Notes under the pieces: model-generated
Database searches by the model: none
The model's input: only the letters and a program-made list of their open reading frames with translations
Told to the model about the DNA's origin: nothing
Shown here: piece by piece, positions 12,864 through 26,364 of the stretch
How positions within the stretch are numbered: position 1 is the first letter of the stretch
How the letters are laid out: every line of letters begins with the position of its first letter
Assembly: GCF_014656095.1 (NCBI RefSeq)
Contig: NZ_BNBT01000004.1
Location: forward strand, 62,001 to 126,000
Source: Streptomyces longispororuber
GTDB lineage: Bacteria; Actinomycetota; Actinomycetes; Streptomycetales; Streptomycetaceae
Reading direction: 5' to 3'
Length of the DNA: 64,000 nt
Made by a program: the position numbers and the translations under genes

Positions 12864-13760
12864 ATGAGCATCAGCCATGCCCCACCTCCGCCTCCCTCGC
12901 CCGACATATCCGGTGAAGCCACCGAAGAGATCCCGGAGACCGGCGCCGTCCCACCGCCCGAGCTCGTCCCCCTCGTGCCCGCCTCCGCCCGCCGCGCCCG
13001 TGTCCCCCGCTGGCTGCGCCGCACCACAGGACCCCTGCTGCTGCTCGTCCTGTGGCACCTGCTCAGCGTCACCGGCGTCCTGAGCGACGACGTGCTCGCC
13101 TCCCCGGGCACCATCGCGCGGGTCGCGGGGGACCTCGTCGAGGACGGTTCGCTGCCCTCGGCCATGGGGGTCTCCGTGCAGCGCGTCGCCGTCGGCCTGC
13201 TGCTCGGGACCCTCGTCGGAACCGGACTCGCCCTCGTCTCCGGGCTGTTCCGGATCGGCGAGGACCTCGTCGACGCGAGCGTACAGATGCTGCGGACCGT
13301 GCCGTTCGTCGGGCTCATCCCGCTGTTCATCATCTGGTTCGGCATCGGCGAGACGCCCAAGCTCGCCCTCATCACGCTCGGTGTCTCCTTCCCGCTGTAC
13401 CTCAACGTGTACGCGGGCATCCGCGGCGTCGACACCCAACTCATCGAGGCGGGCGAGTCGTTGGGGCTCTCCCGGTGGGGGCTCGTACGGCACGTGGTCC
13501 TGCCGGGCGCGCTGCCCGGCGCGCTGACCGGGCTGCGGTACTCCCTCGGCATCGCCTGGCTCGCCCTGGTCTTCGCCGAGCAGATCAACGCCGACGCGGG
13601 CATCGGCTTCCTGATGGTCCAGGCCCGGGACTTCCTGCGGACCGACGTCATCGTCGTCTGCCTGATCGTCTACGCCTTCCTCGGCCTCCTGGCCGACCTC
13701 GCCGTCCGCACTCTCGAAAGGCTGCTCCTTCAATGGCGACCGACGTTCACCGGCCGGTGA
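12864..13760 (+). CDS. ssuC: Aliphatic sulfonate ABC transporter permease SsuC
   Basis: A 298-residue inner-membrane permease of the SsuC/TauC type. After a cytoplasmic Pro-rich N-terminus (to about residue 55) there are six predicted membrane segments. The EAA loop contacting the ATPase is visible (EAGESLGLSRWGLVRHVVLP), preceded by FVGLIPLFIIWFGIGE, which is characteristic of nitrate/sulfonate/taurine permeases. ATG 12864 has AGGAG four bases upstream; the 140-codon open extension before it covers the leader region and is not a protein. First gene of ssuC-B-A-D, controlled from the leader peptide region; its end overlaps ssuB by 28 bases. Confidence 0.92.
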   Translation: MSISHAPPPPPSPDISGEATEEIPETGAVPPPELVPLVPASARRARVPRWLRRTTGPLLLLVLWHLLSVTGVLSDDVLASPGTIARVAGDLVEDGSLPSAMGVSVQRVAVGLLLGTLVGTGLALVSGLFRIGEDLVDASVQMLRTVPFVGLIPLFIIWFGIGETPKLALITLGVSFPLYLNVYAGIRGVDTQLIEAGESLGLSRWGLVRHVVLPGALPGALTGLRYSLGIAWLALVFAEQINADAGIGFLMVQARDFLRTDVIVVCLIVYAFLGLLADLAVRTLERLLLQWRPTFTGR

Positions 13761-14575
13761 CCTCCGCGGCGCCCGCCGCCGTCCGCGTCGACGGGCTCAT
13801 CCGCGCCTTCGACGGCCGCCCCGTCATCGACGGTCTCCGCCTCGACGTGCGGCCCGGCGAGTTCGTGGCGCTGCTCGGCCGCAGCGGCTGCGGCAAGTCC
13901 ACGCTGCTGCGCGTCCTCGCCGGGCTCGACCGCGAGATCGAGGGCACCGTCCTCGTGCCGCGCCGCAAGGCCGTGGCGTTCCAGGCACCGCGCCTGATGC
14001 CCTGGAAGCGGGTGTGGCGCAACGTCGTGCTCGGCCTGGACGGCAAGCCCGAGCGGGCCGTCGCCGAGCGGGCCCTGGACGAGGTCGGGCTCGGCCACCG
14101 CGCCCGCGCCTGGCCCAAGACGCTGTCGGGCGGCGAGGCCCAGCGCGCCTCCCTGGCCCGCGCGCTGGTGCGCGAGCCCGACCTGCTGCTCCTGGACGAG
14201 CCGTTCGGCGCCCTCGACGCGCTGACCCGGGTGCGGGCGCAGCGGCTCGTCGGCGAGCTGTGGCAGCGGCGGGGCTGCGCCGTGCTGCTCGTCACGCACG
14301 ACGTCGAGGAGGCGGTGCTGCTCGCCGACCGGGTCCTCGTCATGGACCGGGGCGTGATCGCGCACGAGCAGCGCGTCGACCTCGACCGGCCCCGCGACAT
14401 CACCGACCCCCGCTTCGCCGCCCTGCGCGCCGGGCTCCTGGAACGCCTCGGCGTCGAGGCGCCCACCCCCGCCTCCGCCTCCGCCTCCACCCCCGCCTCC
14501 GCTGCCGCCGCCACCTCCGCCTCCACTGCCGCCGCCTCCGCTGCCGCCACCGTCCCCGCCCGCACCGCCACCTGA
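13733..14575 (+). CDS. ssuB: Aliphatic sulfonate ABC transporter ATPase SsuB with Ala/Ser/Pro tail
   Basis: A 280-residue ABC ATPase. Walker A is GRSGCGKSTLLR, the Q-loop FQAPRLMPWKRV, the signature LSGGEAQRASLARAL, Walker B LLLLDEPFGALD and the H-loop VTHDVEEAV, all intact. LMPWKRVWRNV is typical of the sulfonate/nitrate/taurine subfamily. Residues from about 244 to the end are a low-complexity Ala/Ser/Thr/Pro tail encoded by repeats of GCCTCC and related triplets; this is not needed for catalysis and looks like repeat expansion. The ATG at 13733 lies inside the end of ssuC, giving translational coupling. Confidence 0.93.
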   Translation: MATDVHRPVTSAAPAAVRVDGLIRAFDGRPVIDGLRLDVRPGEFVALLGRSGCGKSTLLRVLAGLDREIEGTVLVPRRKAVAFQAPRLMPWKRVWRNVVLGLDGKPERAVAERALDEVGLGHRARAWPKTLSGGEAQRASLARALVREPDLLLLDEPFGALDALTRVRAQRLVGELWQRRGCAVLLVTHDVEEAVLLADRVLVMDRGVIAHEQRVDLDRPRDITDPRFAALRAGLLERLGVEAPTPASASASTPASAAAATSASTAAASAAATVPARTAT

Positions 14576-14627
14576 CCGCCTCGACCCCACCGAGCCCGTG
14601 ACGTACGCACAGAACGGATCCGTCCCC

Positions 14628-15671
14628 ATGCGACAACGCCTCGCCCCTGTCCTGCTCCTCCCCTTGGCGCTGGCCCTCGCCGCCTGCTCCGGGACGTCCT
14701 CGGCCACCTCGTCGACCGGCGGCGGAGGTACCGACGGCAAGGGGTCGCTGACCCTCGCCGTCGGTGACCAGCGCGGCGGTTCCAAGGCCGTGCTGCGCGC
14801 CGCCGGCGAGCTCGACGACCTGCCGTACCGGATCGAGTGGTCGACGTTCACGTCCGGGCCGCCGCTCCTGGAGGCCGTGAACGCCAAGGCCGTGGACATC
14901 GGCGCGGTCGGCAACACGCCGCCGGTGTTCGCCGCGGGCGCGGGCTCGAAGATCTCGGTGGTGGCCGCGACCCACGGCACCGCGCGCGGCGAGGCCATCG
15001 TCGTCCCGAAGGACTCCGGGCTGCGGCGGACCGCCGATCTGAAGGGCAGGTCGGTCGCCGTGGCGCAGGGGTCGTCCGCGCACTACCAGCTCGTCGCGTC
15101 GCTGAAGAAGGCCGGGCTCACGCTCAAGGACGTCGACGTCACGTACCTGCAACCCGCCGACGCACTCGCCGCGTTCACCGGCGGCACCGTGGACGCCTGG
15201 GCGGTGTGGGACCCGTACACGTCGCAGGTGCTGCGCGGCGGCAAGGCGCGGGTCCTCACCGACGGCGAGGGCCTCGTCAACGGCCTCAGCTTCCAGGTGG
15301 CGGCGCCCGGCGCACTGAAGGACAAGAAGAAGGCCGCCGCCGTCGGCGACTACCTGCGCAGGCTGCGCAAGGCCCAGAACTGGGTCTTCCGACACCCCGA
15401 GGCGTGGGCGAAGGTCTGGGCGAAGGACACCGGGCTGCCGTACGAGGTCGCCCTCGACGCGGTCAGGCGCACGCACGGCACGCGCGTCCCGGTCGCCGTG
15501 GACCGTGCCGCCATCGCCTCCGAGCAGGACATCGTCGACACCTTCGCCGAGCTGAAGCTCATCCCGCGCCGCGTCGACTTCGCCGACTTCACCGACGACC
15601 GGTTCAACGGCTCGCTGCCGCCCTCGACCACCAAGCCCCGCACCTACCCCCGCACGCCCGAGGAGTCCTGA
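14628..15671 (+). CDS. ssuA: Sulfonate-binding lipoprotein SsuA
   Basis: A 347-residue substrate-binding protein. The signal peptide ends in a lipobox (LALAAC, Cys at about 19), so the protein is anchored to the outer face of the membrane. The family pattern is seen in LTLAVGDQRGGSKAVLRAAGELDDLPYRIEW-type N-lobe sequence, VGNTPPVFAAGAGSKI, and AWAVWDPYTSQVL, which places it with SsuA/TauA-like periplasmic binding proteins (NMT1/THI5 fold). ATG 14628 is preferred; a GTG ten codons earlier lacks a hydrophobic start. It delivers sulfonates to SsuCB and ends 2 bases before ssuD. Confidence 0.92.
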   Translation: MRQRLAPVLLLPLALALAACSGTSSATSSTGGGGTDGKGSLTLAVGDQRGGSKAVLRAAGELDDLPYRIEWSTFTSGPPLLEAVNAKAVDIGAVGNTPPVFAAGAGSKISVVAATHGTARGEAIVVPKDSGLRRTADLKGRSVAVAQGSSAHYQLVASLKKAGLTLKDVDVTYLQPADALAAFTGGTVDAWAVWDPYTSQVLRGGKARVLTDGEGLVNGLSFQVAAPGALKDKKKAAAVGDYLRRLRKAQNWVFRHPEAWAKVWAKDTGLPYEVALDAVRRTHGTRVPVAVDRAAIASEQDIVDTFAELKLIPRRVDFADFTDDRFNGSLPPSTTKPRTYPRTPEES

Positions 15672-15673
15672 CC

Positions 15674-16882
15674 ATGACCGTCCACCTGCACTGGTTCCTG
15701 CCGACCGGCGGCGACGGCCGCACCCTCGTCGACCGGCACGCCTACACCGACGGCGGCATCACCCGCTCCCGCGTCACCCCGGTCAGCGGCGTGCGCGCCC
15801 CCGACATCGCCTACCTGGCGCAGATCGCCAAGGCCGCCGAGCAGCTCGGCTTCGAGGCCGTGCTGACGCCGACGGGCACCTGGTGCGAGGACGCCTGGCT
15901 GACGACGGTCGCCCTGGCCCAGCACACCGAGCGGCTCAAGTTCCTGGTGGCGTTCCGGCCCGGCGTGCTGTCCCCCGTGCTCGCCGCGCAGATGGCGGCG
16001 ACGTACCAGCGCGTCACGCGCGGGCGCCTGCTCCTGAACGTGGTGACGGGCGGCGACGCGACCGAGCAGCGGCGCTTCGGCGACCACGTGGACCACGACC
16101 GCCGCTACGCCCGCACCGACGAGTTCCTGTCGGTGGTCCGCGGGGTGTGGGGCGGCACGCCGTACGACTTCGACGGGACGTACTACCAGGTCGAGGGCGG
16201 TCTCACCGCGCTGCCGCCGGACCCGCTGCCGGAGGTCTTCTTCGGCGGCTCGTCGGCCGCGGCGGGCCCGGTCGCGGCCCGCCACGCGGATGTGTACCTG
16301 ACCTGGGGCGAGCCGCCGGAGCAGGTGAAGCGGAAGCTCGACTGGATCCGGGGGCTCGCCGAGGCGGAGGGGCGCACGGTCCGCTTCGGCATCCGGCTGC
16401 ACACCATCTCCCGCGACTCGGCGCGGGAGGCCTGGGCCACCGCGCGGCGCCTCCTCGACGACCTCGACGCCGACACGGTGGCCGCCGCGCAGGAGGCGCT
16501 CGGCCACAGCGAGTCGGTGGGCCAGCAGCGGATGCTCGCGCTGCACGGCGGCTCCCGCGACAACCTGGAGATCGCGCCGAACCTGTGGGCGGGCGTCGGC
16601 CTCGTGCGCGGCGGCGCGGGCACCGCGCTCGTGGGCAGCCACGCCGAGGTCGCCGACCGCGTCGAGGAGTACCACGCGCTCGGCGTGGAGCACTTCATCC
16701 TCTCCGGCTACCCGCACCTGGAGGAGGCGTACTGGTTCGGCGAGGGCGTCGTCCCGGAGCTCGCGGCGCGCGGCCTCCTGTCCCGCATCCCCGCCGCCCC
16801 GCTGGCCGGCGTCCCGGCCGCGAACGGCCGCCCGGCGTCGGCGCCGGGCGGGGCGCCGCTGCTGGTGGGCGGGGGTCGCTGA
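15674..16882 (+). CDS. ssuD: FMNH2-dependent alkanesulfonate monooxygenase SsuD
   Basis: A 402-residue luciferase-like monooxygenase, releasing sulfite and an aldehyde from imported alkanesulfonates. The start HLHWFLPTGGDGR, the middle LNVVTGGDATEQRRFGD and HDRRYARTDEFLSVVRGVW, and the C-terminal GYPHLEEAYWFGEGVVPEL are all family hallmarks; the essential Cys (PTGTWCEDAW) and Arg/His residues are present. The last 25 residues are an Ala/Gly/Pro tail. It needs a separate FMN reductase; none is adjacent. Starts 2 bases after ssuA. Confidence 0.94.
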   Translation: MTVHLHWFLPTGGDGRTLVDRHAYTDGGITRSRVTPVSGVRAPDIAYLAQIAKAAEQLGFEAVLTPTGTWCEDAWLTTVALAQHTERLKFLVAFRPGVLSPVLAAQMAATYQRVTRGRLLLNVVTGGDATEQRRFGDHVDHDRRYARTDEFLSVVRGVWGGTPYDFDGTYYQVEGGLTALPPDPLPEVFFGGSSAAAGPVAARHADVYLTWGEPPEQVKRKLDWIRGLAEAEGRTVRFGIRLHTISRDSAREAWATARRLLDDLDADTVAAAQEALGHSESVGQQRMLALHGGSRDNLEIAPNLWAGVGLVRGGAGTALVGSHAEVADRVEEYHALGVEHFILSGYPHLEEAYWFGEGVVPELAARGLLSRIPAAPLAGVPAANGRPASAPGGAPLLVGGGR

Positions 16883-16960
16883 GGCGGCGAGCCGCTGGAC
16901 CGCTGAGCTGCTGGGCCGCTGAGCCGCTGGACCGCTGAGCCGCTGAGCCGCTGAGCCGCG
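16883..16960. repeat. 9-bp tandem repeat GCCGCTGAG/GCCGCTGGA
   Basis: Between ssuD and the next gene about eight imperfect copies of a 9-bp word (GCCGCTGAG, GCCGCTGGAC, GCTGCTGGGC variants) run in tandem. No hairpin of terminator type is formed by them; purpose unknown. Confidence 0.7.
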
Positions 16961-16966
16961 GGAAGA

Positions 16967-17018
16967 TCCCGCACCCCGGCATGGTTGGTAGAAACGTGAA
17001 CGATATCGGGGTGCGGGA
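16967..17018. promoter_or_regulatory. 12-bp inverted repeat spanning the possible start codon
   Basis: TCCCGCACCCCG (16967-16978) and CGGGGTGCGGGA (17007-17018) are perfectly complementary and enclose 28 bases holding the ATG at 16981 and a TAGAAA box (16990-16995). Either an operator over the promoter, in which case the real start is the GTG at 17026, or an mRNA hairpin that hides the start. Confidence 0.55.
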
Positions 17019-18141
17019 CGCGGGCGTGACGGACGTGGACGTGGTGGTCGTGGGCGCCGGGCAGGCGGGTCTGTCCAGCGCCTACCACCTGCGGCGCAAG
17101 GGGTTCGAGCCAGGGCGGGACTTCGTCGTCCTCGACCACGCGCCCCGGCCGGGCGGCGCGTGGCAGTTCCGCTGGCCCTCGCTGACGTACGGCAAGGTGC
17201 ACGGCATGCACGCGCTGCCGGGCATGGAGCTGACCGGGGCGGACCCCGCCCGGCCGTCGTCGGAGGTGATCGGGGAGTACTTCGCCGCCTACGAGGACCG
17301 CTTCGGCCTGCACGTACGGCGCCCCGTGGACGTGCGACGCGTACGGGAGGGAGCCGGCGGGCGGCTGCTCGTGGAGACCTCGGCGGGTACCTGGGCCACG
17401 CGCGCCCTGATCAACGCGACCGGCACCTGGGACCGGCCCTTCTGGCCGCGCTACCCGGGCCAGGAGACGTTCCGCGGGCGGCAGGTGCACACAGCGGACT
17501 ACCCCGGGCCCGAGGCGTTCCGCGGGAAGCGCGTCGTCGTCGTGGGCGGCGGCGCCTCCGGCACCCAGCACCTGATGGAGATCGCCCCGTACGCCGCCGC
17601 GACGTGGTGGGTGACGCGGCGGCCGCCCGTGTTCGCCGACGGCCCCTTCGACGAGGAGCGCGGGCGGGCCGCCGTGGCCATGGTCGAGGAGCGGGTGCGG
17701 CGGGGCCTGCCGCCGCTGAGCGTGGTGTCGGTGACCGGGCTCGCCGTCACGGACGCGGTGCGCGAGGCGCGCGCGAACGGGGTCCTTGACCGCCTGCCGA
17801 TGTTCGACCGCATCACGCCGACCGGCGTGGAGTGGGACGACGGGCGGCGGATCGAGGCCGACGTGATCCTGTGGGCGACCGGCTTCCGCGCGGCCGTCGA
17901 CCACCTCGCGCCGCTGCGGCTGCGGGAGCCGGGCGGCGGCATCCGCCTGGACGGCACGCGGGCGGCCGCCGACCCGCGCGTGCACCTCGTCGGGTACGGC
18001 CCTTCGGCCAGCACGATCGGCGCGAACCGCGCGGGGCGCGCGGCGGTACGGGACATCGTGCGCCTCCTCGGGGACGAGGCGGTGGCCGTGCCCGCGCCGG
18101 AGGCCCGGGTGGCCGGCGCGGAGGTGCCGGTACCCGCCTGA
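16981..18141 (+). CDS. FAD-dependent monooxygenase-like oxidoreductase (YhdW/CzcO/FMO type)
   Basis: A 386-residue flavoprotein (371 if the GTG at 17026 is used). DVVVVGAGQAGLSSAYHL binds FAD; VVVVGGGASGTQHLMEI binds NAD(P)H; ILWATGF is the ATG motif common to FMO and Baeyer-Villiger enzymes. PRPGGAWQFRWPSLTYGKVHGM resembles the CzcO/YhdW group. It follows ssuD after a repeat spacer and may belong to sulfur scavenging or act alone; nothing fixes the substrate. The start is uncertain because the first ATG lies inside a 12-bp inverted repeat and has no Shine-Dalgarno. It converges with the lasso B2 gene, 42 bases apart. Confidence 0.85.
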   Translation: MVGRNVNDIGVRDAGVTDVDVVVVGAGQAGLSSAYHLRRKGFEPGRDFVVLDHAPRPGGAWQFRWPSLTYGKVHGMHALPGMELTGADPARPSSEVIGEYFAAYEDRFGLHVRRPVDVRRVREGAGGRLLVETSAGTWATRALINATGTWDRPFWPRYPGQETFRGRQVHTADYPGPEAFRGKRVVVVGGGASGTQHLMEIAPYAAATWWVTRRPPVFADGPFDEERGRAAVAMVEERVRRGLPPLSVVSVTGLAVTDAVREARANGVLDRLPMFDRITPTGVEWDDGRRIEADVILWATGFRAAVDHLAPLRLREPGGGIRLDGTRAAADPRVHLVGYGPSASTIGANRAGRAAVRDIVRLLGDEAVAVPAPEARVAGAEVPVPA

Positions 18142-18183: not shown

Positions 18184-18612
18184 CTACGTGCGCTCCTCCG
18201 GCAGCGGTGCCACCGCGAGCAGCGTCCGGTAGTGGCCCGCCGGGTGCGGCTCCCCCACCGGTCGCCCCGCGACCTCGATCCACGCGTGGGCCTCGAAGGG
18301 GCTGGTGCGCACGCCCGTGCACCAGGTGGGCCAGGTGCCCCGGGCGCGGCACAGCAGGGCCGCGGCGATGGAGCGCTGGAGGCAGGCCTGGCCCGCGCAG
18401 CGCAGGCTGACGGAGACGACGTCCTTGCGGGCGGCCAGGGCCTCGTCGGCGGTGGCGGGCCGGGCGCCCCGGCGTACGGCTTCCAGGACCTTGCGGACCC
18501 GGGCGGGCTTGGCGCGGGCCAGCACGCGGGCCGCGGCCACGGCGAGCAGGGGCAGCGGTCTGCGGCGCACCGGCAGCCGGTCGCGGGCGGCCAGGGCGAC
18601 GGGGGCGCTCAC
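18184..18612 (-). CDS. Lasso peptide protease B2 (transglutaminase-like leader peptidase)
   Basis: A 142-residue cysteine peptidase. The lasso B2 pattern is present: ACLQRSIAAALLCRARG with the catalytic Cys at about 77, then PFEAHAWIEVAGRPVGEP with the catalytic His at about 109 and an acidic residue just after. It removes the precursor leader after the residue following the conserved Thr, in concert with the cyclase. The GTG start at 18612 overlaps the B1 stop by 4 bases. Last gene of the A-C-B1-B2 operon. Length is normal for stand-alone B2 proteins of actinomycetes. Confidence 0.9.
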   Translation of the reverse strand: MSAPVALAARDRLPVRRRPLPLLAVAAARVLARAKPARVRKVLEAVRRGARPATADEALAARKDVVSVSLRCAGQACLQRSIAAALLCRARGTWPTWCTGVRTSPFEAHAWIEVAGRPVGEPHPAGHYRTLLAVAPLPEERT

Positions 18613-18872
18613 CGGGGCTCCGCGAGGAGGTCTGCGGCGCGCAGGGAGTCCACGAGCCGGGCCACGTCGCGCCGGGCGGCCTCGGGCGCGGCCCGGTGGC
18701 GCTCCGTCAGCTCCTGGGCGGCCTGGTCGTGGGTGCGGCCGTCGAGGAGGTTCTTCAGGACGAGGACGCCGGTGGGGTTGAGCTGCCAGTAGCGGCCGGT
18801 GCGCTGGTGCAGCAGGACGGCTCCGTCGTCGGTCTCGGCGAGGGAGACGTCGGGGTGCAGGGTCAGGGGCAT
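18609..18872 (-). CDS. Lasso peptide recognition protein B1 (PqqD-like RRE)
   Basis: An 87-residue PqqD-fold protein: LHPDVSLAETDDGAVLLHQRTGRYWQLNPTG gives the three-stranded sheet and AAQELTERHRAAPEAARRDVARLVDSL the helices of the winged RIPP recognition element. In split lasso systems B1 binds the leader (Tyr and Pro of its motif) and brings it to B2. The ATG at 18872 is 2 bases after the cyclase stop; the end overlaps B2. Found only as the split form here, as usual in Streptomyces. Confidence 0.9.
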   Translation of the reverse strand: MPLTLHPDVSLAETDDGAVLLHQRTGRYWQLNPTGVLVLKNLLDGRTHDQAAQELTERHRAAPEAARRDVARLVDSLRAADLLAEPR

Positions 18873-18874
18873 CG

Positions 18875-20716
18875 TCACGTCCGAAGGGGTAGGGGGCGGC
18901 GGGCGGCGCGGGCCCAGGTCTCGCAGCCGAGGAGCTGTTCGACGGCGATGTCCCGGGCGGAGTCGGCCTGGGGGGCGAGGAGCCGGGCGCGGACGGCGTC
19001 GGCGTCGATCACTCCGAGCCGGGCCAGCTCGGAGTCGGCGAAGACGTCGAGCAGCGCACCGAGGTTGCGGCGGCGGCCCGTGCGCAGGTCGGCGCTGAAG
19101 TCGCCCTTGGTGGTGCGGTCCAGGACGAGGTCGGGGACGAGGCCGCGCAGGGAGCGGGCGAGGAGCGGTTTGTACCGCCACGGCGTGACGCGCTGGTCCA
19201 GACGCACGGCGAGGGCCGCCTCCACGACGCGGTCGTCGAGGAACGGCAGGTGCAGGCGCACGCCCTCGGCGGCGAAGAGCCGGGCGACCTGCCGGTACGC
19301 GGGCGACGTGACGCGCAGGGCGGTCAGGCACTGGTGCTGCCCCCGGTCCTCGGCGAAGGGCCGGGCGCTGTCGGCGGCCTCCAGGAGCGCGGCCCGGGCG
19401 GCGTCGACGGCGGCGTCGCTCGCCCAGGCCGGGGCGCGCAGCGGGGCGAGCCCCCAGCTCAGTGAGGGCAGCCGGGCGGGTGGCGGCGGACCGGTGAGCG
19501 CGGCGGCCTGGGCGCGCCACCAGTCGGACGGGGTGTCGGCGCGGGCGAGTTGGCCGAGGGTGGCCGCGAGCGGCCAGCGGCCGAGGGCGCGGTTGCCGCG
19601 CAGGTGGCGCAGCCCGGTCAGGGGGTGGCGGCGGACCAGGCGGTGCAGATAGCCGTACGTCCGGCCGAGGAGCTCGTCGGCGCCGTGGCCCGCGAGGTGG
19701 TGGCGGGAGCCGTGGGCGGCCAGGACGCGGGCGGTGTGCCGCATGCGGGCGTGGGTGCGCGCGTACAGGTACGGCCGCTCGGTGTCGGCGAGGGCCTCGG
19801 GGTCGGCGAAGACGGGCGGCAGCTCCTCCTGGGGCAGGACGAGGTGGTGCGCGTCGGGGAGGCGTGCCGCGGCGTGGGCGGCGTAGCGGGCGTCGTCGTT
19901 GCCCGCCTCCGCCTCGGCCCAGCGGAAGGCCAGCAGGTCCGGGGTGTGCCGGGCGGCGAGGAACGCCAGGGAGGTGGAGTCCATGCCGCCGGACAGGTCG
20001 CTGCTGAGGCTTCCGGCGGACGGGCCGGGCGCGCTCGTGCCGTCGGGGCGGCGTGCGTCGACCGCCGTGACCAGGGCCTGGCGCAGGGCCACCGCGCCGT
20101 CGTCCAGGGGGAGTTCGGGGTCGGGCGGACGCCACCGGAGCACTTCGCGGGCGCGGTCGGCCTCCAGGACGAGGCAGTGGTCGTGCGGCACCGTCGCCAC
20201 GCCCGCCCAGGGGCTGCGGTCGGCGAGCGGGGGCGGCAGCATGCCGCCGCACGCGACGCGCACCGCCAGCACGTCCTCGTCGACGCCCGCGCCGGTGAGC
20301 GCGGCGAGCACGTCGGCGCGGTCCGCGGCGAGCGGCGTCCCGTCGACGAGACGGGCGTGGAAGACCTGCCGCAGCCCGGTCAGGCCGCCCTGGACCCGTG
20401 TGGCGCCGTCGTCCGTGGCGGCCACCAGGTGGAAGCTGCCGGGCAACTCCCGCGCCACGGCGTCCACGTCGGCGAGCGTACGCAGGCCCCGGGCCAGCCG
20501 CTCCAGGCGGTCGGTGGTGACCGGGCAGTGCCCGATCACCACCAGGCGCACCGGACCCGCCGTCGTGCGGCGGACCTCGTCCGGGTCCCAACCGCCCACC
20601 ACCCAGGGGCGGCCCGAGGGGTGGGCAAGCACCCGGGCGGCCGGGAAGGGGTACGCGTCCGGGGTCCGCGGGGCTGCCCCTGGCGCGTCCGACAGGACGA
20701 CGAATCCGGCGCTCAT
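18875..20716 (-). CDS. Lasso peptide cyclase C (asparagine-synthase-like)
   Basis: A 613-residue ATP-dependent macrolactam synthetase. The N-terminal glutaminase-like domain has lost its nucleophile Cys2, as in all lasso cyclases; the synthetase domain carries the ATP pyrophosphate loop SSDLSGGMDSTSLAFLA (SGGMDS at 242-247), GHGADELLGRTYGYL and LPFLDDRVVEAAL. The enzyme adenylates the side chain of a ring-forming Asp/Glu and joins it to the new N-terminal amine of the core. The ATG at 20716 has AGGTGAG upstream and lies 56 bases after the precursor stop, so the two are co-transcribed. Full length, no missing motif. Confidence 0.93.
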   Translation of the reverse strand: MSAGFVVLSDAPGAAPRTPDAYPFPAARVLAHPSGRPWVVGGWDPDEVRRTTAGPVRLVVIGHCPVTTDRLERLARGLRTLADVDAVARELPGSFHLVAATDDGATRVQGGLTGLRQVFHARLVDGTPLAADRADVLAALTGAGVDEDVLAVRVACGGMLPPPLADRSPWAGVATVPHDHCLVLEADRAREVLRWRPPDPELPLDDGAVALRQALVTAVDARRPDGTSAPGPSAGSLSSDLSGGMDSTSLAFLAARHTPDLLAFRWAEAEAGNDDARYAAHAAARLPDAHHLVLPQEELPPVFADPEALADTERPYLYARTHARMRHTARVLAAHGSRHHLAGHGADELLGRTYGYLHRLVRRHPLTGLRHLRGNRALGRWPLAATLGQLARADTPSDWWRAQAAALTGPPPPARLPSLSWGLAPLRAPAWASDAAVDAARAALLEAADSARPFAEDRGQHQCLTALRVTSPAYRQVARLFAAEGVRLHLPFLDDRVVEAALAVRLDQRVTPWRYKPLLARSLRGLVPDLVLDRTTKGDFSADLRTGRRRNLGALLDVFADSELARLGVIDADAVRARLLAPQADSARDIAVEQLLGCETWARAARRPLPLRT

Positions 20717-20772
20717 CTCACCTGGCCTCGGCTCGTACGGTCCGACTGGTCACTGGTCCGGTACGGCCGCCC

Positions 20773-20916
20773 CTACCAGCCCTGCTCGCCGAGGACGTCG
20801 TTGTACTTGTTGCCGAAGCCCAGCGTGTCCTCGGAGAACTCGCCGACGGCCACGAGGGCCGGCGGCTCGTAGCCCGTGGCGGCGTCCTGCTCGTCGGTGC
20901 CCGTGTGCTGTTCCAT
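20773..20916 (-). CDS. Lasso peptide precursor A, predicted core GFGNKYNDVLGEQGW
   Basis: A 47-residue precursor. The leader contains Y16-x2-P19-x-L21-x3-G25-x-F27-x3-T31, exactly the YxxPxLxxxGxFxxxT pattern read by B1 and B2. With Thr at -2, cleavage after Leu32 gives the 15-residue core GFGNKYNDVLGEQGW. Gly1 and Asp8 should form an 8-residue macrolactam ring; Glu12 is too far. The tail (VLGEQGW) would thread the ring. No cysteine, so a class II lasso. The GFGxKxxD start recalls sungsanpin and chaxapeptin, but the rest differs. The ATG at 20916 has AGGAGGC at ideal spacing; earlier in-frame starts have none. Calculated neutral monoisotopic mass of the lasso: 1664.76 Da. Confidence 0.9.
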   Translation of the reverse strand: MEQHTGTDEQDAATGYEPPALVAVGEFSEDTLGFGNKYNDVLGEQGW

Positions 20917-24480: not shown

Positions 24481-26364
24481 CTACGGCGCGGGTTCCAGGA
24501 GCGTGTCCCTGCGCACGAGCGCGGCGTACCGGCCGTTGCCGGCGAGGAGTTCCTCGTGGGTGCCCCGCTCCACGGCCCGCCCGCCGTCGAGGACCACGAT
24601 CTGGTCGGCGCCGCGCACGGTGGACAGCCGGTGGGCGATGGTGAGCGTGGTCCGGTCGGCCGACAGGGCGTCGATGGCCCGCTGCACGGCGTGCTCCGTC
24701 CGGGTGTCGAGGGCGCTGGTGGCCTCGTCCAGGATGAGCACGGGAGGGTCGCGCAGGATCGTGCGGGCGATGGCGAGGCGCTGCTTCTCGCCGCCGGAGA
24801 AGCGGTGGCCGCGCTCGCCCACCACGGTGTCGTAGCCGTCGGGGAGGGCCGCGATGTGGTCGTGGATCTGCGCGGCCCGTGCGGCGGCGTGCAGTTCCTC
24901 GTCGGTGGCGTCCGGCTTGGCGAAGCGGAGGTTGTCGGCGACGGACGCGTGGAACAGGTACGTCTCCTGGGAGACGACGCCGACGGCGCGCGCGAGGGTG
25001 TCGAAGTCCAGGTCGCGCACGTCGACGCCGTCGAGGGTGACGCGCCCGGCCGTCACGTCGTACAGCCGGGGGACCAGGTAGCTGAGCGTGGACTTGCCGG
25101 AGCCCGTGGGCCCGACGACGGCCAGGCTGCCGCCCGCGGGCACGGTGATGTCGATCCCTTCGAGGACGGGGGCGCCCTCGGGGTCGTAGCGGAACTCCAC
25201 GCCCTCGAACCGGACCTCGCCCTTGACCCGCTCCAGGGACACCGGCCGGTCCCGCTCGGTGATGTCGACGGGCAGGTCGAGGTACTCGAAGATGCGCTGG
25301 AAGAGCGCGAGCGAGGTCTGGATCTGCACCCCGGTGGAGAGCAGGCTGACCGCGGGCCGGAACAGGCCCTGCTGGAGCGAGACGAACGCGACGAGCGTGC
25401 CGATGGAGACGGTGGGCCCGCCCATCTGGAAGGTGAGCCCGGCGCTCCAGTACAGGACGGCGGGCATGGCGGCCATGACGATGGTGATCACGGCCATGCG
25501 CCAGCGCCCGGCCATGTTGGAGCGGACCTCCAGGCGCACCAGCTCCGCGGACTCGTCGGCGAACGAGCGCGTCAGCGAGTCGGCGCGGCCCATCGTGCGG
25601 CCGAGCAGGATGCCGCTGACGGACAGCGACTCGGTGACCGTGGCGGCCATCGCGGCCATCTGCTTCTGCCGCTCGGTGGCGATCTTCTTGCGCTCGCGGC
25701 CGACCCGGCGACTGATCCACACGAACAGCGGAAGCAGCAGGAGGGACACGACGGTCAGGCGCCAGTCGAGGGCGAGCATGGCGACGACGGTGGCGATGAC
25801 GCTCGTGCTGTTCGACACGAGGGAGGTCGCCGTGGAGGTGACGGTCGCCTGCATGCCGCCGATGTCGTTGGCGATGCGGGACTGGACCTCGCCGGTGCGG
25901 GTGCGGGTGAAGAAGGCGAGCGACATGCGCTGGAGGCGGCCGTAGACGGCGGTGCGCAGGTCGTGCATGACCTGCTGGCCGACGGTCGTGGAGATCAGCG
26001 TCTGGAGGACGCCGAAGACGCTGGTGACGACCGCGCTGAGGACCATGCCGAGCGCGAGCAGGGTCAGCAGGCCCGTGCGTCCCTGCGGGATGGCGGTGTC
26101 CAGGATCTCCTTGAGGAGGAAGGGGGTCGCCACCGAGACCAGGGACGCGGCGCACACCAGCAGGCCGACGACGGCGAGGCGGGCGCGGTACGGGCGGAAG
26201 AGGCGGAGGATGCGGCGTAGCTGGCGGGGCTCCTCCGGGCCCTCGGCCGGGCGGGGCTCCCCCGGGTCCTTGGCCAAGCGGGGCTCCCTCGGGTCCTTGG
26301 CCGGGCGGGGCTCCCCCGGGCTCGCGTCCGAGGGCGTCCAGGTGGGCGGGGTGTCGTGAGGCAT
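24481..26364 (-). CDS. ABC exporter, fused permease and ATPase (multidrug/lipid type)
   Basis: A 627-residue half-transporter. After a repetitive charged N-terminus (9-residue repeats GEPRPAKDP/REPRLAKDP/GEPRPAEGP) come six membrane helices (about 60-345) and an ATPase domain with Walker A VGPTGSGKSTLSYL, signature FSGGEKQRLAIARTIL, Walker B VLILDEATSALDTRTE and H-loop IAHRLSTV. All catalytic residues are present, so it can work as a homodimer. It faces a MarR gene with a palindromic operator between them, the usual layout for regulated efflux. ATG 26364 chosen; substrate unknown. It could also serve the lasso peptide, which lacks its own exporter, but that is speculation. Confidence 0.92.
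   Translation of the reverse strand: MPHDTPPTWTPSDASPGEPRPAKDPREPRLAKDPGEPRPAEGPEEPRQLRRILRLFRPYRARLAVVGLLVCAASLVSVATPFLLKEILDTAIPQGRTGLLTLLALGMVLSAVVTSVFGVLQTLISTTVGQQVMHDLRTAVYGRLQRMSLAFFTRTRTGEVQSRIANDIGGMQATVTSTATSLVSNSTSVIATVVAMLALDWRLTVVSLLLLPLFVWISRRVGRERKKIATERQKQMAAMAATVTESLSVSGILLGRTMGRADSLTRSFADESAELVRLEVRSNMAGRWRMAVITIVMAAMPAVLYWSAGLTFQMGGPTVSIGTLVAFVSLQQGLFRPAVSLLSTGVQIQTSLALFQRIFEYLDLPVDITERDRPVSLERVKGEVRFEGVEFRYDPEGAPVLEGIDITVPAGGSLAVVGPTGSGKSTLSYLVPRLYDVTAGRVTLDGVDVRDLDFDTLARAVGVVSQETYLFHASVADNLRFAKPDATDEELHAAARAAQIHDHIAALPDGYDTVVGERGHRFSGGEKQRLAIARTILRDPPVLILDEATSALDTRTEHAVQRAIDALSADRTTLTIAHRLSTVRGADQIVVLDGGRAVERGTHEELLAGNGRYAALVRRDTLLEPAP
26225..26329. repeat. 27-bp in-frame repeat in exporter N-terminus
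   Basis: Units at 26225-26251, 26252-26278, 26279-26305 and a partial one from 26306, each beginning CGGGGCTCC; they encode 9-residue Glu/Pro/Arg/Lys repeats ahead of the first membrane helix. Confidence 0.8.

Follow-up and report, generated by a model that had tools for sequence, protein, structure and literature searches.

The ring of class II lasso peptides joins the N-terminal residue to an acidic one at position 7, 8 or 9. In sungsanpin the ring joins Gly1 to Asp8, and chaxapeptin and sungsanpin both have the ring size that is predicted for the peptide described here. The absence of a disulfide is given as a mark of class II in a passage of PMC12427821, where a table lists chaxapeptin as GFGSKPLDSFGLNFF and sungsanpin, of 15 residues, as GFGSKPIDSFGLSWL. 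The chaxapeptin cluster (cxp, locus L080), carried on plasmid pSLE2 of S. leeuwenhoekii, has the gene order A-C-B1-B2 and no transporter gene. According to passages of PMC6856326, the peptide was nevertheless produced in S. coelicolor and was present in the culture supernatant of S. albus, a non-specific transporter was suggested for its export, and a homologous cluster of S. cinnamoneus does have a transporter.

Our analysis of a 64 kb stretch of Streptomyces DNA (hereafter the window) revealed a cluster with the same gene order as that of chaxapeptin. We regard it with high confidence as an intact cluster for a class II lasso peptide, without a transporter gene of its own, whose product would have a Gly1-Asp8 ring. 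On the sequence comparisons given below, it looks like a relative of chaxapeptin and sungsanpin and not a new kind of system.

Organization of the gene cluster

The preliminary description had placed four lasso parts at 18184-20916 on the minus strand. All four were found there, with intact frames and tightly packed. The precursor gene lasA (20773..20916, minus strand) starts with ATG and encodes 47 amino acids, MEQHTGTDEQDAATGYEPPALVAVGEFSEDTL followed by GFGNKYNDVLGEQGW; the predicted core and the stop codon take up 20773..20820. The other three genes are on the same strand: lasC (18875..20716, ATG start) encodes an asparagine-synthase-like lasso cyclase of 613 amino acids, lasB1 (18609..18872, ATG start) a PqqD-like RRE of 87 amino acids, which by its family is a leader-binding protein, and lasB2 (18184..18612) a transglutaminase-like Cys protease of 142 amino acids, whose GTG start overlaps the lasB1 stop by 4 bases.

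An exact YxxPxLxxxGxFxxxT motif had been claimed for the leader and is indeed present, reading YEPPALVAVGEFSEDT. A six-frame search of the window gave a single occurrence of the strict motif, and in combination with a short core it was found in none of 40 dinucleotide shuffles, while a relaxed form of the motif gave 2 matches summed over the same 40 shuffles. LasA also passed the lasso leader model NF033521 (33.8 bits, cut-off 19), its homologues are present at 12 other loci, and an AGGAGG sequence lies within 20 bases 5' of its ATG. No sigma-70 site was recognised 5' of the operon on its own strand by a simple scan, which covers few Streptomyces promoters, and an Rfam search gave nothing at gathering score.

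Biosynthetic enzymes

LasC matched PF00733 (Asn_synthase) with an E value of 2.8e-39. Its best NCBIfam model, NF033561, gave 259.6 bits, under the cut-off of 300, but this shortfall says little because the chaxapeptin cyclase (241.3 bits) also falls short. LasB1 passed NF033530 (114.8 bits, cut-off 70) and matched PF05402 (E 2e-16), and so did LasB2 with NF033537 (112.6 bits, cut-off 33) and PF13471 (E 1.2e-26). When solved structures were searched by sequence, LasB1 matched TfuB1 (6jx3, E 1.3e-16), TbiB1 and, weakly, designed proteins, and none was found for C or B2. A passage of PMC5067487 describes PadeB1, the B1 protein of another lasso cluster, as binding the leader and handing it to B2.

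The alignments of the enzymes each contained 17 proteins: those of the window, of its 12 relatives, of L009-L011 and of chaxapeptin (L080). The PP-loop SGGxDS of the cyclase (S242, G243, G244, D246 and S247) was invariant in all 17, as were Cys77 and His109 of LasB2. From knowledge of these families, we take the loop residues and Cys77/His109 to be catalytic. The dN/dS of C, B1 and B2, estimated by the Nei-Gojobori method against L002, L004 and L007, was 0.20-0.38. This indicates that the three genes appear to be kept by purifying selection.

Core peptides of the family

Twelve further loci (L002-L008, L012 and L083-L086) contain the same four genes, all in the order A-C-B1-B2, which is also that of the chaxapeptin locus. 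Adding the window gives 13 loci with 9 distinct cores fitting GFGxxxxDxLxxQ. Overlapping draws were merged, so that L013/L014 were counted as L002/L003 and L017 as L012. S. aurantiacus JA 4570, S. aureoverticillatus JCM 4347 and S. lasiicapitis CGMCC 4.7349 are among the members, with 9 other loci. The cores are GFGNKYNDVLGEQGW, GFGNRYNDVLGEQGW (2 loci), GFGTRHNDVLGEQGW, GFGHRYEDVLGEQGWG (3 loci), GFGNDYSDFLGEQR, GFGSDHSDFLAKQGW, GFGSDHTDVLGKQGW (2 loci), GFGSDHSDVLGKQGW and GFGHDHSDFLARQGF.

Gly1, Phe2, Gly3, Asp8, Leu10 and Gln13 are invariant in all nine cores, whereas positions 4-7 are variable. Position 12 is Glu in 5 of the 9 and Lys or Arg in the other 4, and six cores end in GW. The cores of S. 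aurantiacus and S. aureoverticillatus (L002 and L003, from public genomes) differ from that of the window only by the change of Lys5 to Arg.

When contigs were scanned with the cyclase, 11 loci were obtained, of which 8 (L002-L008 and L012) had a GFGxxxxDxLxxQ core and 3 (L009-L011) did not. In the genus, a precursor search at E <= 0.01 was positive in 26 of 392 genomes, and 7 of these 26, the window's own genome included, had a core of the family. Searches with an alignment (A1) were positive in 19 of 394 genomes of the taxonomic family, where such a core was present in two (G000, the genome of the window, and G598), and in 2 of 394 genomes of the class, where G000 alone had one.

In S. milbemycinicus a second, divergent set of lasso cyclase, B1 and a precursor ending AGSIFGFQYDGGFYPYSQYG was observed (L005:15-2218). 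It lies on the other strand, about 1.4 kb from the GFGxxxxDxLxxQ cluster. The genome of the window has further lasso loci as well. One of them (L082, G000:C19:443-2233) is at a contig end and has a second lasso cyclase and a citrulassin-like precursor with GFLQRNGNDRLILSKN after the leader Thr; the stretch gave no B2 match, and the contig begins just beyond B1. The other (L081, G000:C51:30234-32051) is a third lasso cluster, with a precursor that ends MAFGPCVENDWLLGTAWIC and has two cysteines; downstream of its B2 lies an ABC ATPase-like stretch.

Phylogeny of the cyclases

The tree contained 30 cyclases, and its midpoint root serves for drawing only. L021, in which the cyclase found no match, was left out, and the L063-L079 rows are truncated sequences. 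The window cyclase grouped with those of L002, L003 and L007 (100/99), and then fell in a group of 9 rows (98/99). The 13-row clade of the GFGxxxxDxLxxQ family was not starred and has moderate support (85/95). Beside it stands a pair formed by the chaxapeptin cyclase and L009 (88/88), and these 15 rows were joined at 93/94. The cyclases of L002, L003 and L007 are about 35-75 residues longer than that of the window (rows of 649, 686 and 683 against 613). The labels anantin, siamycin, SRO15 and citrulassin-like are our own assignments.

A separate starred clade (100/98) is made up of eight rows whose cores are of the ulleungdin, the huascopeptin or another type. The ulleungdin- and huascopeptin-type clusters (L064 and L065) resemble the present one in the leader end GEFSEDT-LG and in their related cyclases, but they differ in their cores, GFIGWGKDIFGHYGG and GYGNAWDSKNGLF, and in their place within that clade. 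The two names were assigned by core identity with the table in PMC12427821.

Comparison with chaxapeptin and sungsanpin

The proteins of the cluster are 55% (cyclase), 48% (B1) and 67% (B2) identical to those of chaxapeptin. Both precursors have the leader end GEFSEDT-L (processing junction SEDT-L-GFG, with EDT-L-GFG common to lasA and the chaxapeptin precursor) and a 15-residue core. On the other hand, the tail is SFGLNFF in chaxapeptin and VLGEQGW here, ring residues 4, 6 and 7 are unlike, and the chaxapeptin cyclase falls in another group of the tree. It had been stated that chaxapeptin and sungsanpin share only GFGxKxxD with this core. This understates the likeness, for six of the 15 positions (1, 2, 3, 5, 8 and Gly11) actually agree. 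Sungsanpin, likened here by its peptide alone, agrees at the same six positions and has a different tail in the sequence tabulated in PMC12427821.

With these 6 of 15 positions and a cyclase outside the chaxapeptin pair, the core is not a near-identical member of the chaxapeptin/sungsanpin group, GFGSKP(I/L)DSFGL. No NCBIfam model named for chaxapeptin/sungsanpin fired on chaxapeptin's own precursor, and a search of plasmid records gave one match, chaxapeptin itself.

Predicted product and pathway

The core GFGNKYNDVLGEQGW has no Cys, as had been said, and has Gly1 and Asp8, both invariant in the nine cores; these are the features of class II. Its side-chain acids are Asp8 and Glu12, with none at position 5 or 7, where some relatives have a further acid inside the ring. 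The Gly1-Asp8 ring of 8 residues proposed earlier is supported by the homologues. Asp8 is by far the likeliest ring acceptor, and not Glu12, because Asp8 is present in 9 of 9 cores and Glu12 is not. Cutting after Leu(-1) gives a computed linear mass of 1682.769 and, minus water, 1664.758 Da. Recomputation for the predicted lactam thus returned the earlier values (1664.758 Da, MH+ 1665.766, 2+ 833.386).

The analysis shows the genes, their motifs and conservation and the arithmetic of the mass, whereas expression of the cluster, the site of cleavage, closure of the ring, threading, export and activity are our inferences. B1 would bind the YEPPALVAVGEFSEDT leader, and B2 would cleave after Leu(-1), the residue directly C-terminal to the conserved Thr. 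The cyclase would then adenylate the side chain of Asp8 and, with the tail already threaded, bond it to the amine of Gly1. The lasso expected at the end has 15 residues, eight in the ring and seven in the loop and tail (VLGEQGW), and the MH+ given above. It would probably leave the cell through a general Streptomyces transporter, as proposed for chaxapeptin.

The cluster is probably functional. That it is silent or decaying and gives no product is improbable: the simple scan recognised no promoter and there is no transporter gene, but the four frames are open and full-length compared with the relatives, the presumed catalytic residues are invariant, the dN/dS values are low in the range reported above, and a core differing in one residue is kept in other species.

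A different start of the core is very unlikely. A cut right after Thr, which closes the leader motif, would give LGFGNKYNDVLGEQGW with a 9-residue Leu1-Asp9 ring. In streptomonomicin the ring is Ser1-Asp9. Such 9-residue rings exist, and streptomonomicin (SLGSSPYNDILG...) is tabulated in PMC12427821. The same table, however, gives the chaxapeptin product from Gly, although its precursor has the same T-L-GFG junction. Leu(-1) is as invariant as Gly1 in the GFGxxxxDxLxxQ family, so conservation does not decide the start residue.

We retain Gly1 as the first residue and a threaded lasso as the product; a branched macrolactam that never threads or that unthreads is hardly to be expected, for although Trp15, at the extreme end, is the one clearly bulky residue of the predicted tail, and the L008 homologue ends GEQR with no terminal Trp, LasC is 55% identical to the chaxapeptin cyclase over 604 residues, and the total length equals that of chaxapeptin and sungsanpin as tabulated in PMC12427821.

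Export and neighbouring genes

No ABC exporter is present in the A-C-B1-B2 operon. An ABC exporter gene at 24481-26364 was considered as a dedicated exporter and rejected, since it is located 3.6 kb upstream of A, with a STAS gene, a subtilase gene and another gene in between. A tblastn search (E 1e-4) with this exporter and with the SsuB-like ATPase detected no ABC exporter in the available flanks of the 12 relatives; these flanks are unequal (L004 ends 60 bases past B2, L005 has 3.7 kb upstream, and L083-L086 have about 3-5 kb per side). The flank matches were confined to L002, L003 and L007, and every one of them fell on the SsuB-like ATPase, at roughly 12.4-13.5 kb in the locus. As a positive control, the search found the ABC ATPase stretch beside the other lasso cluster of the genome, L081.

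Conserved tailoring genes were also looked for by comparing the ORFs of 12 loci (the window and L002-L012) and were rejected, as the ORF groups common to 12 of 12 all fell inside A-C-B1-B2, antisense shadow frames included. Upstream of A, L002 has an M4 metallopeptidase and a sigma region 4 protein, which grouped with proteins of L003 and L007 and had no counterpart among the window ORFs at 8-36 kb.

On the other side, window positions 13667-18138 contain what looks like an uptake operon of the sulfonate type, including an ArsO-like flavin monooxygenase, which scored 323.8 bits with NF040505, below the cut-off of 425. The sulfonate and LLM-monooxygenase labels are our reading of the translations. 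Within the fetched flanks, uptake-type neighbours were common to L002, L003 and L007 only, and they look like a reflection of common genomic location.

Novelty and significance

The core had been described as unknown. The text of 5.39 million PMC papers gave no match to GFGNKYNDVLGEQGW (supplements, subscription papers, MIBiG and antiSMASH lie outside this scope), no match to fragments covering all nine cores (at least one for each), and no product of any GFGxxxxDxLxxQ relative. As far as PMC article text shows, the core is therefore unpublished. The novelty is nevertheless smaller than suggested, given characterised relatives, near-identical cores in public genomes and, as cited in a passage of PMC7369419, more than 1,400 lasso clusters from the RODEO survey alone. 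In the same source, S. aurantiacus is mentioned for aurantizolicin, a cyclic peptide that contains azolines. DeepRiPP yielded the lasso peptide deepstreptin, which may be a relative of the present peptide.

The cluster leaves the knowledge of lasso biosynthesis unchanged. It is one more lasso cluster without a transporter gene, and how such a peptide leaves the cell has been a question since chaxapeptin (discussed in a passage of PMC6856326). Small, complete and testable, it predicts a single exact mass that can be sought. It also anchors a family of nine cores that can be compared for ring tolerance, as positions 4-7 vary, and for the conserved tail. A tentative idea, which we hold to be possible but doubtful, is that the 13 loci form a distinct lasso family without dedicated transporter, in which the invariant Leu10 and Gln13, and not a bulky plug, might keep the thread in place or serve to bind a common target.
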